Both the position numbers and the translations under genes were made by a program. From Acidimicrobiales bacterium (lineage in GTDB: Bacteria > Actinomycetota > Acidimicrobiia > Acidimicrobiales > JACCXE01): a stretch of 64,000 bases of DNA. Positions 29,564 through 55,776 of the stretch are shown here, one piece after another (within the stretch, counting starts at the first letter, position 1; each line of letters opens with the position of its first letter). The notes under the pieces were generated by a model that saw nothing but the letters and a program-made list of their open reading frames with translations, did no database searches and was not told the DNA's origin. Location: the NCBI GenBank assembly GCA_035546775.1, contig DASZWD010000047.1, positions 1 to 64,000 of the forward strand, written 5' to 3'.

Positions 29564-31360
29564 GTGACGACGACCGAAGAGCTGGGATTCGATCCGGACG
29601 AGCTGCGCGCCAGGTACGAGGCGGAGCGCGACAAGCGCCTGCGTCCTGATGGCGCCGAGCAGTACATCGAGCTGACCGGTCGCTTTGCCCACTACTACGA
29701 GGAAGACCCCTACGTCGACGCGCCGATCGAGCGCGCTCCGATCAACGCGGAGGCGAACGTCGTCGTCATCGGTGGCGGGTTCAGCGGGCTGCTCGCCGGG
29801 GCGCGCCTCACCGAGATCGGCATCGACGAATTCAACATCATCGAGGCCGGGGCCGACTTCGGCGGCACCTGGTACTGGAACCGCTACCCCGGCGCGCAGT
29901 GCGACATCGAGTCGTACTGCTACCTACCGCTGCTCGAAGAGCTCGAGTACATGCCTAAGGAGAAGTACTCCTTCGCCCCGGAGATTTACGAGCACAGCCG
30001 CCGCATCGGCAAGCACTACGGCCTGTACGACAAGACGTGGTTCCAGACGCGGGTGCGGTCGGTCGACTGGGACGAGAGCATCAAGCGCTGGCACCTGCGG
30101 ACCAACCGCGGCGACGACATCAGGGCGCGTTTCGTCATCTTTGCGCTCGGCCCGGCGAACCGTCCGAAGCTGCCGGGCATCGAGGGCATCGACGACTTCA
30201 AGGGCCACTCGTTCCACACGGCGCGCTGGGACTACGACTACACCGGCGGCGACACGAACGGCGGCATGACGGGTCTGGCCGACAAGCGCGTCGCCATCAT
30301 CGGCACCGGGGCGACGGCCATCCAGTGCGTGCCCCGCACCGCCGAGTGCGCGCAGCATCTCTACGTGTTCCAGCGCACGCCGTCGTCGGTCGACCTGCGG
30401 GGCAACAAGCCGACCGATCCCGACTGGTGGAAGTCGCTGTCGCCCGGCTGGCAGAAAGCGCGGCGCGAGAACTTCGCCGGCATCCTGGCGGGCGAGCAGT
30501 TCGACGAGGACCTCGTCAACGACGGCTGGACCGACATCTTCCGCAACATGACGTCGGAGCTGAGCGGTGGCGGCTCGATCCTCGACATCGGCAAGGCGGT
30601 CGAGCTGGCCGACTTCCGCAAGATGAATTCGATCCGCCGGCGCGTCGAGGAGACGGTGAACGACCCGGCCACGGCCGAGGCGCTCAAGCCGTACTACCGC
30701 CAGATGTGCAAGCGGCCCACGTTCAACGACGAGTACCTGCCGGCGTTCAACCGCGACAACGTGACGCTGGTCGACGTGAGCGAGTCCAAGGGCATCGGCC
30801 GCATCACCGAGAAGGGCGTCGTCGCCAACGGCGTCGAATACGCAGTCGACTGCATCATCTTCGCGTCGGGCTTCGAGATCACCACGAAGCTGGAGCGCCG
30901 CATCGGCCTGCCGGTCAACGGGCGCGACGGCCTGTCGCTGTTCGAACACTGGGGCGGCGGCATCAAGTCGCTCCACGGCTTCACCACCCGCGGCTTCCCC
31001 AACTGGTTCTACATCGGCATGTCGCAGAACGCCTTCAGCGTGAACATGACCCAGATGTTCGACGAGCAGGCCCAGCACATCGCCTACCTGATCAAGGAGA
31101 CGATCGACCGCGGCGCCACGACGATCGAGCCGAGCGAGGAGGGCCAGCGCGCCTGGTGCGAGCTGATCGACAATTTCGGGGCCATGACCGCCGCTCTCGG
31201 CTTCTTCGAGAGTTGCACGCCCGGCTACTACAACAACGAAGGCCAGGGTCAGGGTGGGCTCAGCTCGGGCGTGTACGCGGCGGGCATCAACGCCTTCAAC
31301 CAGCTGCTCGTCGACTGGCGCGAGCGCGGCGATCTCGACGGGATGGAGTTGGACCGTTAG
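29564..31360 (+). CDS. Baeyer-Villiger-type flavin monooxygenase
   Basis: The product is 598 residues. Two Rossmann motifs bind FAD (GGGFSG, 70-75) and NADPH (GTGATA, 247-252), and the fingerprint F-x-G-x3-H-x3-W-D is complete at 212-223 (FKGHSFHTARWD). DFGGTWYWNRYPGAQCDIES is the conserved FAD-side loop. The enzyme inserts oxygen into a ketone to give an ester or lactone. About 60 residues precede the first Rossmann fold, as in cyclopentadecanone- and steroid-type members. GTG 29564 is supported by the promoter position. A TetR gene follows, and the hydrolases and dehydrogenase downstream could process the ester product. Confidence 0.92.
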   Translation: MTTTEELGFDPDELRARYEAERDKRLRPDGAEQYIELTGRFAHYYEEDPYVDAPIERAPINAEANVVVIGGGFSGLLAGARLTEIGIDEFNIIEAGADFGGTWYWNRYPGAQCDIESYCYLPLLEELEYMPKEKYSFAPEIYEHSRRIGKHYGLYDKTWFQTRVRSVDWDESIKRWHLRTNRGDDIRARFVIFALGPANRPKLPGIEGIDDFKGHSFHTARWDYDYTGGDTNGGMTGLADKRVAIIGTGATAIQCVPRTAECAQHLYVFQRTPSSVDLRGNKPTDPDWWKSLSPGWQKARRENFAGILAGEQFDEDLVNDGWTDIFRNMTSELSGGGSILDIGKAVELADFRKMNSIRRRVEETVNDPATAEALKPYYRQMCKRPTFNDEYLPAFNRDNVTLVDVSESKGIGRITEKGVVANGVEYAVDCIIFASGFEITTKLERRIGLPVNGRDGLSLFEHWGGGIKSLHGFTTRGFPNWFYIGMSQNAFSVNMTQMFDEQAQHIAYLIKETIDRGATTIEPSEEGQRAWCELIDNFGAMTAALGFFESCTPGYYNNEGQGQGGLSSGVYAAGINAFNQLLVDWRERGDLDGMELDR

Positions 31361-31379
31361 GGCGAACAAGCGCGACGAG

Positions 31380-31919
31380 GTGCTGCTGGCGGCGCGCGAC
31401 GCGTTCGCGGCGCGCGGCTATTCGGGCGCGTCGATGCGAACCATCGCGGCCGACGCCGGCGTCACCGCCATGGCGCTGTACAACTACGCGTCCTCCAAGG
31501 CCGCGCTGTTCGAACTGGTGTGGGGCGAAAGCGTCGAGGCGCTGTACGCCGAGTTCGCCAAGGCGATCGCCGGCCAAGCGACCCTCGTCGACGAGATCAA
31601 CGCCGTGTTCGACGCCGCCTACGCCGCCTTCGTCGACGACCCAGTCGGGCTGCTGTTCACGTCGCGCCTGCTGGTCGAGCGTCGGCATCCGGACCTGGCG
31701 CACATCGACCTGCACCTGACGCCCTACGCCGAGTTCTTCGTCGACATCACCGAGCGCGCCGTGCGCCGCCGCGAACTGAAGCGCAGCCAGCAGGTCGCCT
31801 TCATCGGCTTCGTCACCACGTTGCTGTGGGGCTTCACGTCGATCGCCACGCTGGAGCCGGCGGTGCTCCAGATCAGTGTCGAGGCGTCGAAGGCCGCCGT
31901 GGCGCGCTTCCTTCGCTAG
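31380..31919 (+). CDS. TetR-family regulator with an uncertain start
   Basis: From GTG 31380 the product is 179 residues. The helix-turn-helix is SMRTIAADAGVTAMALYNYA, then SSKAALFELVW, and the rest is a helical ligand-binding domain. Homology clearly begins earlier: in the same frame RANKRDE precedes the GTG, the usual beginning of the first helix, but there is no ATG, GTG or TTG between 31254 and 31380. Starting at ATG 31254 would overlap the monooxygenase gene by 107 bases. Either the protein begins slightly late in helix 1 or it uses a rare start. It probably regulates the monooxygenase. Confidence 0.78.
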   Translation: MLLAARDAFAARGYSGASMRTIAADAGVTAMALYNYASSKAALFELVWGESVEALYAEFAKAIAGQATLVDEINAVFDAAYAAFVDDPVGLLFTSRLLVERRHPDLAHIDLHLTPYAEFFVDITERAVRRRELKRSQQVAFIGFVTTLLWGFTSIATLEPAVLQISVEASKAAVARFLR

Positions 31920-33435: not shown

Positions 33436-33455
33436 AACCCCGATTGGGTGGGGTT
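33436..33455. terminator. Possible hairpin between convergent genes
   Basis: AACCCC (33436-33441) and GGGGTT (33450-33455) can pair around an 8-base loop in the 24-bp gap between two convergent genes. There is no U-tract, so termination ability is uncertain. Confidence 0.3.
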
Positions 33456-34617
33456 AGAGCATGTAGTCGTCCGGCTCGAGGCCGAACGTGACGCGCCCGA
33501 CGCGCTTCATGGCATCGGCGGAGAACACGATGTGCTGGCGCGCCGCGTGCAGGTCGCGGGCGGCGCGCTGCAGCGGTTCGTCGTCGCGCACCGAGCTGGC
33601 GCCCGCGAAGGGGAGCAGCGTGTCGACGGCGTTGAGCCCGGCGCGCAGGATGAGCTGCTGCGCGCCGATGACCGCCGCGCGCTGGCGCGCCGTGCACGCG
33701 TCGCCGCGGGTGACGGTGGCCCACGCGTCGCCGATGGCGTCGACGAACAGGGAGCGGGCGGCGCGCAGTTGCAGGTCGGCCTGGGCGACCACGATCTGGG
33801 CGTACTCGTCGTCACACACCGTCGGGCCGATGCCGCGCCGCTTGGTCTGGGCGATCTCGACGAAGCGGTCGACCGCGGCGCGCCCCACGCCGGCGGCGAA
33901 GCCCGTCACCAGCGGCGCCAGCAGGTCGTACATCGGTAACCGGAACAGCGGGCGGTCGATGCGCGCCGGCTCGAACATCGGCGAGCACGTGTGGTCCGCC
34001 GGGACGTACACCGCGTCGACGGCGATGTCGTGGCTGCCGGTGCCGCGCAGCCCCGGGGCGTGCCACGTGTCGATGACGGCGACGTCGTCGCGACGGAACC
34101 AGGCGAAGCGCCAGTCGGGGCGGTCGCCGACGAAGCGCGGCACGTCGCCGTCCATCACGAGCACGCCGCCCATGACGAGCTCGCTGTGGAGCGCGCCGCT
34201 GGCGCACGGCCAGCGGCCCGAGACCACGAACCCGTCACCGGTCGGCACGGCGCGGCCGAGCGGCGCAAACGTACCGGCGACCGGTCGGTCGGGATCGCCG
34301 GCGAGCAGCCCGCGAGCGGCGTCGGGCTCGAGCCACGCCAGCAGCGTGCCGGTGTTGCCGATGAACGTCGTCCAGGCTGCCGATCCGTCGGCCCGCCCGA
34401 GTTCTTCGATCGTCTCGAAAATCGTGAGCGGCGCCGCTTCCAAGCCACCGAGTTCTTCGGCCAGCGCCAAGCGGAACAAGCTGGCGTGCTTGATGGTGGC
34501 GACGAGGTCCGCCGGCATGGTGCGCTGCGCCTCGCCTTCGGCGGCGCGCGCCCGCAGTTCCGGGGCGAGGGCGGCGGCGCGCGCGACGAGATCGGTGGTT
34601 TCGATCGTGAGGGTCAT
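33454..34617 (-). CDS. Acyl-CoA-dehydrogenase-fold flavoprotein (group D monooxygenase-like)
   Basis: The product is 387 residues. The fold is that of acyl-CoA dehydrogenases, but the C-terminal RDLHAARQHIVFSADAMKRV resembles HpaB/HsaA/DszC-type flavin-dependent hydroxylases, in which a conserved D-H/T-x4-H stretch forms the active site. ELGGLEAAPLTIFETIEELG and GLRGTGSHDIAVDAVYVP are shared landmarks. It probably oxidises a catabolic intermediate using flavin delivered by a reductase not present here. AAGGAGA lies 7 bases upstream of ATG 34617. It is divergent from a TetR gene, with a 36-bp palindrome between them. Confidence 0.85.
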   Translation of the reverse strand: MTLTIETTDLVARAAALAPELRARAAEGEAQRTMPADLVATIKHASLFRLALAEELGGLEAAPLTIFETIEELGRADGSAAWTTFIGNTGTLLAWLEPDAARGLLAGDPDRPVAGTFAPLGRAVPTGDGFVVSGRWPCASGALHSELVMGGVLVMDGDVPRFVGDRPDWRFAWFRRDDVAVIDTWHAPGLRGTGSHDIAVDAVYVPADHTCSPMFEPARIDRPLFRLPMYDLLAPLVTGFAAGVGRAAVDRFVEIAQTKRRGIGPTVCDDEYAQIVVAQADLQLRAARSLFVDAIGDAWATVTRGDACTARQRAAVIGAQQLILRAGLNAVDTLLPFAGASSVRDDEPLQRAARDLHAARQHIVFSADAMKRVGRVTFGLEPDDYML

Positions 34618-34634
34618 CGGCTGGTTCTCCTTCG

Positions 34635-34670
34635 ATAGAGTAACACTCTATTAATAGAGTGTTACTCTAT
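34635..34670. promoter_or_regulatory. 36-bp perfect palindromic operator with back-to-back promoters
   Basis: The left arm ATAGAGTAACACTCTATT (34635-34652) is repeated exactly as its reverse complement on the right (34653-34670). Each arm is itself an inverted repeat, AGAGT-N3-ACTCT, so two operator copies face each other. TACTCT occurs on each strand (34663-34668 plus; mirror at 34637-34642), and the -35 hexamer of each promoter would lie on the -10 box of the other. One repressor could thus silence both directions. Confidence 0.85.
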
Positions 34671-35319
34671 GAGTGTGGCGACGGATGTCAAGAGGGGAAT
34701 GACGCGGCGACAGGAAAAGGCCGAGGCGACGCGCCAGCGCGTGCTCGACGCCGCCCTCGACCTGTTCCTCGCCGAGGGGTATACGACCGCCACCATCGCG
34801 GCGATCGCCGACGCGGCCGACGTCGCCGTGCAGACGGTGTACGCCGTGTTCGGCAACAAGAAGGCGATCCTCGACGCCCTGCGCGCTCGCGCCGTCACCG
34901 GCGAGGGTGGCGGGCCGCTGCGCCAGCGCCCGGACTGGCAGGCGATGGAGCGCGAGCGCGATCCGCGCCAGCAACTGCGCCTCCTCGCCACCATCGCCAC
35001 GGGAATCGGCGCCACGATGGGTCCGCTCTACGAGGTGATGACCGGTGCAGCCGCGTCCGATCCCGAGATCGCCGACACCTTCCGCCGTCAGCAGCAGGCG
35101 CGCCACGACGACCAGCGCCACGTCGCCCAAGCGCTGGCGCGGCGCGGGGCGCTGCGGGAAGGGCTCACGGCCAAGGACGCCACCGACGTCATGTGGGTCA
35201 TCGCCAGCCCAAGCACCTATAACAACCTCGTGGGCGAGCGCGGCTGGAGCCGCGACAAGTACGAGCAATGGCTGGGCGACACGCTCATCGCCGCGCTGCT
35301 CGCTACCGTCACGGCGTGA
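34669..35319 (+). CDS. TetR-family regulator
   Basis: The product is 216 residues from ATG 34669. The helix-turn-helix is TATIAAIADAADVAVQTVYA, then VFGNKKAILDALRA, in a clear TetR_N domain; the C-terminal part is helical. Starting at 34669 puts the codon on the last bases of the operator, while ATG 34699 (MTRRQEKAEATRQRV), preceded by AGAGGGGA, gives a more usual start and leaves room for a transcription start point after the -10 box. I think 34699 is quite possible. The adjoining palindrome is the expected target. Confidence 0.85.
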   Translation: MSVATDVKRGMTRRQEKAEATRQRVLDAALDLFLAEGYTTATIAAIADAADVAVQTVYAVFGNKKAILDALRARAVTGEGGGPLRQRPDWQAMERERDPRQQLRLLATIATGIGATMGPLYEVMTGAAASDPEIADTFRRQQQARHDDQRHVAQALARRGALREGLTAKDATDVMWVIASPSTYNNLVGERGWSRDKYEQWLGDTLIAALLATVTA

Positions 35320-36050
35320 ACGAGACGCTGACGCTTGCGACGCCCGACGGCGACATGGGGATCCACGTGGTGCGCCCCGACGGCGTTGGCTCGTATCCGG
35401 TGGTCGTGTACTTCCACCACGGCCCGGGCCTCGACGACGGCTCCAAGGAATCAATGCAGTGGATCGCCGATCGCGGCTTCTACGTCGTGAGCCACGACCG
35501 GTATCACCGATTCGAACCGTGGCTCGTCGTCACCGCGGAGATGCGCAAGGACGAGGAGGCGATGAAACGGTTCGGTGCCGCGTTTGGCGGCACGACCGAG
35601 GCAATGGTCGACGCCGACCTCGTCGCGCTGCTCGATCATCTCGCCACCGATCCAGCGGCGAGCGACGGGCCGATGGGATGCATCGGTTACTGCATTGGGG
35701 CGCGCTCGGTCGTCATGACAATGGCGCACCACGGTGACCGCTTCGCCGCCGGCGTCGGTATGCACCCGTCGTACTGCACGACGGACCAGCCCGACTCGCC
35801 CCACCTGCTCGTGCCCTCGATCGACGGGTCGCTCTACGTCGCCTTCGGCTCCGAGGACAAGATGCAGTCGCCCGAGGCCAACGTGCCGTTCATCGAGGCG
35901 GTGCGGGCGATGCCCGATGGGCGCGGCGAAGCCGACATCCTCGAGGGCGCCAACCACGGCTTCGCCGTGCCGCAGACGGCGGGCTATCACACCGAGGCGG
36001 CGAAGACCGCCTACGCCAAGGCGTTCGCGTTGTTCGACCGCGTGCGCTGA
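35316..36050 (+). CDS. Dienelactone hydrolase family protein
   Basis: The product is 244 residues. The DLH triad is Cys126 in GYCIGARSV, Asp181 in GSEDKMQ and His214 in GANHGFAVP. Family members open cyclic lactones and dienelactones in ring-cleavage pathways. GTG 35316 overlaps the stop of the TetR gene as GTGA, so it is translated with the regulator; TACCGT lies 6 nt upstream and may act as an extra internal leaderless promoter. In this cluster it could hydrolyse lactones formed by the Baeyer-Villiger enzyme. Confidence 0.87.
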   Translation: MNETLTLATPDGDMGIHVVRPDGVGSYPVVVYFHHGPGLDDGSKESMQWIADRGFYVVSHDRYHRFEPWLVVTAEMRKDEEAMKRFGAAFGGTTEAMVDADLVALLDHLATDPAASDGPMGCIGYCIGARSVVMTMAHHGDRFAAGVGMHPSYCTTDQPDSPHLLVPSIDGSLYVAFGSEDKMQSPEANVPFIEAVRAMPDGRGEADILEGANHGFAVPQTAGYHTEAAKTAYAKAFALFDRVR

Positions 36051-54602: not shown

Positions 54603-54634
54603 GAAAAGGGCCGGGCACACGCCCGGCCCTTTTC
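54603..54634 (-). terminator. Strong intrinsic terminator of the cupredoxin gene
   Basis: GAAAAGGGCCGGGC (54603-54616) and GCCCGGCCCTTTTC (54621-54634) form a perfect 14-bp stem with an ACAC loop, 18 bp after the stop of the minus-strand cupredoxin gene. The stem ends in a TTTT run on the minus strand. Read the other way it also ends in TTTT, so it may work in both directions. Confidence 0.85.
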
Positions 54635-54651: not shown

Positions 54652-55674
54652 CTAGCTGGCTTTGATCGTGCCGCCCATGCCGCTCGGGCTGTGGAAGATG
54701 CAGATGTAGCTGTACTCACCCGCCGCCGGGACGTTGAAGGTGAAGCTGCGGGCCGCCGCCGGCGGCCCCGAACCCGGCGGCACGTTGGGTGGCAGCAGTC
54801 CGGAGTTGAACGTCCCCGTCGCCGTGAGCGTCTGGGGGCTCGGACCCGGCGACGGCGTTTGGGCCTCGGTCGACTCGGGGTTCTGCGGCAGCGTTCCCGA
54901 TCCCTTGAAGCTCGCGGTGTGCGGCGCTGCGGAGTTGTTGATGAACGTCACCTTGTCGCCCGCCTTGATGTCGGCGCTCGCCGGCTGGAACGCGAGGACC
55001 GATGTGTGCTGTGTGTCGACGCCCATCTCGATGGTCCAGGTGGTCGAGCCGTCCGCGTTGGCCGTCTTCTGCAGCGGGGTGTCGGTCAGCTTCTTCTTGG
55101 CGGCGCGGCCTTCGGCGAGCCACTGCTGCTCCTCGGTGATGGCCCGCTTGTTGATCGCCGACTGCTGCTCGGCCGACGCGTCGTCGGCGACGACCTTGAC
55201 CGTGCCCGTCATGCCCGGATGGATGAGGCACTGGTAGGTGAAGGTGCCCTCCTTGGGGAACGACACCGAGTAGGTCGCCGGATCCGGTCCCTGGGGAATC
55301 AGCTCCGAGCTGAAGGTCTGGCTGCCGTCGTAGGCGCCTGTCGTGGACTTGGCGCGCAGGGCGGCGTTCGCCGGATCGCTCGGCGGCGGCGGCGTCTGCC
55401 CCGTCGGCAGGAACGTGATGCTGTGCGGCTCGGGGCCGGGCACCTTCCATTCGATCGACGAACCCGCCTTCACGGTGACCGACGCGGGCAGGAACGCCAG
55501 CACCGCGATGTTGCGGTCCTTAGGGTCGTTTACGCCCGCCTGCACGTTGACCTTCGTCGGGGCTTTGCCGTTCGTGGTCGTGGTGGCGGCCTTGTTGTCG
55601 TCGGACTTCCCGCACGCGGACATCGCGAGTGCGAGGGCGGTTACGACGGCAACGATGGTTGTCGCTCGTTTCAT
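54652..55674 (-). CDS. Lipoprotein with two cupredoxin (blue copper) domains
   Basis: The product is 340 residues. A lipobox AMSAC gives lipidated Cys21, followed by a Thr/Asn-rich linker. Domain 1 (about 45-165) has a His in PEPHSITF and Cys-His-Met in YQCLIHPGM; domain 2 (about 215-340) has His in AAPHTASF and Cys-His-Met in YICIFHSPSGM, so both type-1 copper sites are complete. A helical linker rich in Glu, Gln and Lys joins them. It is probably a periplasmic or surface electron carrier. AAGGGGAGAAACTC precedes ATG 55674. No partner oxidase is in the window. Confidence 0.88.
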   Translation of the reverse strand: MKRATTIVAVVTALALAMSACGKSDDNKAATTTTNGKAPTKVNVQAGVNDPKDRNIAVLAFLPASVTVKAGSSIEWKVPGPEPHSITFLPTGQTPPPPSDPANAALRAKSTTGAYDGSQTFSSELIPQGPDPATYSVSFPKEGTFTYQCLIHPGMTGTVKVVADDASAEQQSAINKRAITEEQQWLAEGRAAKKKLTDTPLQKTANADGSTTWTIEMGVDTQHTSVLAFQPASADIKAGDKVTFINNSAAPHTASFKGSGTLPQNPESTEAQTPSPGPSPQTLTATGTFNSGLLPPNVPPGSGPPAAARSFTFNVPAAGEYSYICIFHSPSGMGGTIKAS

Positions 55675-55712: not shown

Positions 55713-55776
55713 CCGCAACCGGTTCGCGGATTGTGCCCGTCCCGGGCACAATCCGCGTACGGGTTGGGTGCGGGTT
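55710..55776. repeat. Nested extragenic hairpin
   Basis: An outer stem AACCCGCA/TGCGGGTT (55710-55717 and 55769-55776) encloses a perfect 15-bp stem, CGCGGATTGTGCCCG/CGGGCACAATCCGCG (55725-55739 and 55743-55757), with a 3-base loop. It fills the gap between menB and the cupredoxin gene, which are both on the minus strand; no U-tract follows. It may be a palindromic repeat, or an attenuating terminator for the menB transcript. Confidence 0.75.

Follow-up and report, generated by a model that had tools for sequence, protein, structure and literature searches.

In Tn10, the divergent genes tetR and tetA are separated by two palindromic operators, from which both promoters are repressed, and when a divergent neighbour is under 200 bp away, a TetR-family regulator usually acts as its repressor (PMC3511530). 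Several other members of the family, namely QacR, CgmR, CprB, SlmA, Ms6564 and DarR, bind as two dimers to one long operator of 22-32 bp, and this binding is cooperative in QacR and CprB (PMC4150764; PMC10636190). The locus described here, which lies in a 64-kb window (the whole stretch of DNA that was analysed) of an Acidimicrobiales genome, is a well-supported new example of this known kind of divergent TetR switch: a palindrome at 34635-34670, between a TetR-family gene and a monooxygenase gene, is very probably, as judged from sequence comparison, the autoregulatory operator through which the TetR-family protein encoded at 34675-35319 represses both divergent promoters by means of two dimer sites. 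As in Tn10 tetR/tetA, the TetR-family gene is divergent from its putative target, with paired operator dyads in between. Unlike in Tn10, the dyads adjoin within a single 36-bp palindrome with 19 bp between their centres, an oxygenase takes the place of a pump as the target, and the similarity between the regulators is limited to the DNA-binding domain. While the dimers of CprB and DarR overlap on the DNA, the dyads in the window are adjacent and have no bases in common, and here two dimers would presumably bind.

The palindrome (ATAGAGTAACACTCTATTAATAGAGTGTTACTCTAT) is perfect, as the first-pass annotation had claimed: its two 18-bp arms, ATAGAGTAACACTCTATT and AATAGAGTGTTACTCTAT, match exactly and meet without a spacer. 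It is the longest palindrome of the window, for which base composition predicts only about 1e-5 perfect 18+18 palindromes, and its GC content is 28% compared to 70% for the window as a whole. The AGAGT-N3-ACTCT repeat that had been noted within each arm is likewise present in both, with AAC as N3 on the left (ATAGAGT-AAC-ACTCTAT, 34635-34651) and GTT on the right (ATAGAGT-GTT-ACTCTAT, 34654-34670), and with the two centres 19 bp apart. When up to three mismatches are allowed, ATAGAGT-N3-ACTCTAT matches solely these two operator dyads in the window (0.11 expected), no further copy with up to two mismatches was found elsewhere in the 3.75-Mb genome, and the double motif (up to three mismatches) occurs there once. 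The lack of other motif copies in the genome suggests that the regulator acts locally, on a single site, and does not control a large regulon. The locus thus resembles KstR and Mce3R of mycobacteria in the apparent control of a catabolic gene by a TetR-family protein in Actinomycetota, but would differ from both in being local and single-site. Searches of the literature returned nothing on AGAGTNNNACTCT together with TetR, and for the half-sites they yielded just unrelated sequences and tetO constructs. Viral contigs contained no exact copy of the 26-bp core.

The regulator gene (34675-35319, plus strand, GTG start) encodes a protein of 214 aa with a TetR_N helix-turn-helix (Pfam PF00440; E 1.2e-11, 44.6 bits against a cut-off of 24). 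The AlphaFold2 model has an all-helical two-domain fold with 10 helices (pLDDT 90.4), which Foldseek matched with a probability of 1.00 (TM 0.6-0.7) to structures of the TetR family, FadR and NalD among them; by sequence, the best match in the PDB is Mce3R, and all PDB sequence matches are confined to the DNA-binding domain. The same genome contains a paralogue of the regulator (L075, G000:C17:39000-42000) that is 36-37% identical, with a TGA within the region of the match. Elsewhere in the window, the stretch 29564-31919 holds a Baeyer-Villiger-type monooxygenase, which reaches 700 bits with the NCBIfam PtlE model (under the cut-off of 1100), and after it, from about 31359, another TetR-family gene that differs from the one described here.

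The divergent gene (33454-34617, minus strand) encodes a flavin-dependent, HsaA/Rv3094c-like monooxygenase of 387 aa with an acyl-CoA dehydrogenase fold (Pfam Acyl-CoA_dh_2, 2.2e-21). Rv3094c (E 1.5e-54) and HsaA are its nearest solved structures, and it matches both by sequence; yet an assignment as HsaA itself (3-HSA monooxygenase) was rejected, as the score of 184.7 bits with NCBIfam NF045629 is under the equivalog cut-off of 450. On the other side, a gene of the dienelactone hydrolase family (35316-36050, plus strand; Pfam DLH, 3.6e-27) shares its first 4 bp with the end of tetR, and both genes probably form one operon. The divergent start codons (34617 and 34675) are separated by a gap of 57 bp, which, together with the overlapping promoters, fits the published rule of less than 200 bp for divergent repression (PMC3511530).

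TetR homologues were gathered from whole genomes and their upstream regions were read, which resulted in 82 homologues for the family counts. In one relative (L035), TetR is 73% identical, a monooxygenase orthologue (83% over 367 aa) is found at the same place, and the upstream sequence, TAGAGTTTAACTCTATTGATAGAGTGATACTCT, keeps both dyads at a distance of 19 bp. The TetR of G075 (L045/L114) comes from another family and is 40% identical to that of the window, and its operator, GTAGAGTTTACATCTATTAATAGAGTGTTACTCTAT, shares 30 of 36 bases with the palindrome, including a nearly identical right dyad with its linker, and again has dyads 19 bp apart. When 397 genomes of the phylum were searched for the double motif, the G075 site turned up independently as the sole other match; this count is not significant alone, since a reversed control also gave one match, and the evidence from the search is therefore the position of the site directly upstream of a tetR homologue. 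The recognition helix (DVAVQTVYAVFGNK / ADVAVQTVYAVFGNK) is identical in the window, L035 and L045. Divergent genes, by contrast, vary among the loci (the window and L035 have a monooxygenase, L037 has an AMP-binding enzyme, and G075 has a 92-aa protein with no Pfam match), so that the shared element is the regulator together with its site. The paired dyads and the identical helix thus lend support to the earlier proposal that the palindrome is an operator of the adjacent TetR with two dimer sites.

The special role that had been ascribed to the perfect 36-bp symmetry finds no support in the same comparison. Symmetry about the axis of the whole palindrome amounts to 18/18 positions in the window, 13/18 in L035 and 12/18 in L045; among these sequences, it is the paired dyads that are conserved, not the 36-bp perfection. 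Moreover, the subfamily can do without a second site: L036 and L037, at 50-52% identity, each retain one clear dyad, and the Lentzea loci likewise have just one, again of this form. Across the 82 homologues, the paired-dyad score is best at 19 bp among all spacings above 11 bp, with a family-wide peak that is modest (36.3 compared to about 34.3 at other spacings).

The recognition helix also correlates with the half-site: where DVAVQT has its Gln, homologues with Gln have TAGA half-sites (13:0) and those with Glu or Asp have TACA (0:8; 82 homologues, Fisher 5e-6). The half-site classes were set after inspection of the data, and the best dyads of many homologues could be assigned to neither. 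In a tree of 27 rows, whose assignment was partly made by eye, about three changes of the joint label are needed (bootstrap 2-4), and L074 switches its label within a Glu/TACA group, which makes shared ancestry alone an unlikely cause of the correlation. The correlation could be used to predict the operators of many unstudied homologues.

A consensus scan of the region returned one promoter, TTGACA-N16-TAGAGT on the minus strand, with a match of 10/12. Its proposed -35 box, TTGACA (34686-34691), lies within the first codons of tetR (GATGTCAAG), its proposed -10 box, TAGAGT, follows at 34664-34669 after a 16-nt spacer, and transcription of the monooxygenase gene is predicted to start near 34657. 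Of the 82 homologues, 58 have GTCAA (TTGAC when read on the opposite strand) close to the start of tetR, compared to 5.5 in shuffles. In 12 of these 58, it is out of the Val-Lys frame; GTCAAG encodes 41 of the 44 Val-Lys pairs found there, although GTC accounts for only about half of the Val codons in gene bodies. Downstream of TTGAC, the pattern nAnnnT peaks sharply, with a spacer of 17 in 33/58 homologues, 18 in 15/58 and few cases elsewhere. These counts argue that the monooxygenase gene is probably transcribed from this sigma-A-type promoter, with its -35 box inside the tetR codons. As a protein feature that would fix the tetR start, the shared N-terminal Val-Lys pair is weak evidence, since the codon and frame counts reveal a TTGAC signal at the DNA level as well.

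For tetR itself, the proposed -10 box is TACTCT (34663-34668, plus strand), with TG one base upstream, and a weak -35 box, GTAACA (34640-34645, plus strand; 4/6), can be read from the sequence 17 bp from TACTCT; the consensus scan of the region did not pick up this -35 box. In the homologues, TAnnnT lies 6 nt (12/82) or 7 nt (16/82) before an in-frame start codon, compared to 0-1 cases in the other frames, which indicates leaderless tetR mRNAs. The gap between TACTCT and GTG 34675 is 6 nt in the window as well as in L035 and L045, transcription is predicted to start at 34675 on the plus strand, and the tetR transcript probably begins with this GTG and has no leader. The ATG at 34669, which had been taken as the start of tetR, would be located upstream of the transcript and is probably wrong; GTG 34675 is the likelier start.

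The proposed switch would operate with one dimer on each AGAGT-N3-ACTCT dyad, the two dimers being placed next to each other at a distance of 19 bp, or about 1.8 helical turns. The right dyad overlies both proposed -10 boxes, that of tetR (plus strand, 34663-34668) and that of the monooxygenase gene (minus strand, 34669-34664), which occupy nearly the same base pairs. A dimer on the right dyad would bar RNA polymerase from both promoters, and because both -10 boxes lie there, a single dimer could be sufficient. The left dyad overlies the proposed -35 region of tetR and early transcribed DNA of the monooxygenase gene, which a second dimer would cover. A small-molecule inducer, probably the substrate or product of the monooxygenase, would free the repressor, and this release would switch on the monooxygenase gene and the tetR-hydrolase operon. 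The palindrome, the gene order, the conserved paired dyads and, by comparison, the promoter elements are observed. Binding and repression are inferred, and two-dimer occupancy, cooperativity and induction by a substrate-like ligand are extrapolated from the family (PMC4150764; PMC10636190; PMC3511530); repression might be tight and cooperative. The first-pass view that the operator overlaps the promoters of the two flanking genes is strengthened by the comparison between loci and by the promoter elements in the homologues.

The same annotation had arranged the two promoters as mirror images, with TACTCT as the -10 box of each, and the -35 region of each on the -10 box of the other, which would place the start of the monooxygenase transcript near 34630. 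The boxes are indeed present on both strands (34663-34668, plus; 34642-34637, minus), each with TG one base upstream by symmetry, but the left box is unlikely to serve as part of a promoter: it would provide the left gene with only GTAACA (4/6) and TACTCT (3/6), the monooxygenase mRNA would begin at its own ribosome-binding site, and the corresponding box in L035 is AACTCT, without the leading T. TTGACA-N16-TAGAGT, in contrast, scores 10/12, its -35 is kept in 58/82 homologues with a -10 at 17-18 nt, and this better, family-conserved -35 lies outside the palindrome and inside tetR, so the claim that each -35 region coincides with the other -10 box lacks support and has a low probability. Another arrangement would place a single dimer on the central dyad ACTCTATTAATAGAGT (centre 34652.5), with the outer half-sites as accessories. 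This dyad is perfect in the window, its counterpart TCTATTAATAGA is intact in L045, and the homologues are also enriched in dyads spaced 10 bp apart. The arms of the central dyad resemble tetO1 of Tn10, but the half-sites of tetO1 are spaced about 3 bp wider. However, such a form arises automatically where two AGAGT-N3-ACTCT dyads abut, and the single-dyad relatives L037, L038, L039 and L041 carry TAGAG-N3-CTCTA and not the inverted form, which leaves a central dimer with a low probability.

An action of the inverted repeat chiefly in RNA, where the monooxygenase mRNA would carry it in its leader as a hairpin or terminator, is by far harder to believe. In a leader starting at 34657, the Shine-Dalgarno sequence is indeed directly preceded by a hairpin (7-bp stem, 3-nt loop), but its fold is no better than that of shuffles (z -0.74), it is rich in A+T and lacks a T-run, and in L045 the left hairpin is broken while the right dyad is kept. 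An RNA role of the hairpin was rejected.

With the palindrome read as a two-dimer operator on both promoters, an uncharacterised actinobacterial oxygenase gains a local, testable candidate regulator with a defined 36-bp operator. This pair could be useful toward finding the substrate of the oxygenase, which is the likely inducer, and possibly as a part of a biosensor. The homologues further suggest a family-wide layout of a leaderless tetR with the target -35 box within the regulator gene. More tentatively, and with somewhat less than an even chance of being right, the subfamily might combine this -35 box in the first codons of a leaderless tetR with a DNA code, in which helix Gln reads TAGA and Glu or Asp reads TACA, the 36-bp palindrome being an optimised two-dimer form. 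If such a module exists, the tetR coding sequence and the target promoter would constrain each other.

Two further inverted repeats were observed in the window. At 54603-54634, GAAAAGGGCCGGGC and GCCCGGCCCTTTTC, separated by N4, form a strong hairpin that resembles a two-way terminator. At 55725-55757, two 15-bp arms, CGCGGATTGTGCCCG and CGGGCACAATCCGCG, flank a 3-nt loop (TCC) about 50 bp upstream of the probable start of a minus-strand gene near 55674, and this repeat could be an operator or an RNA element.
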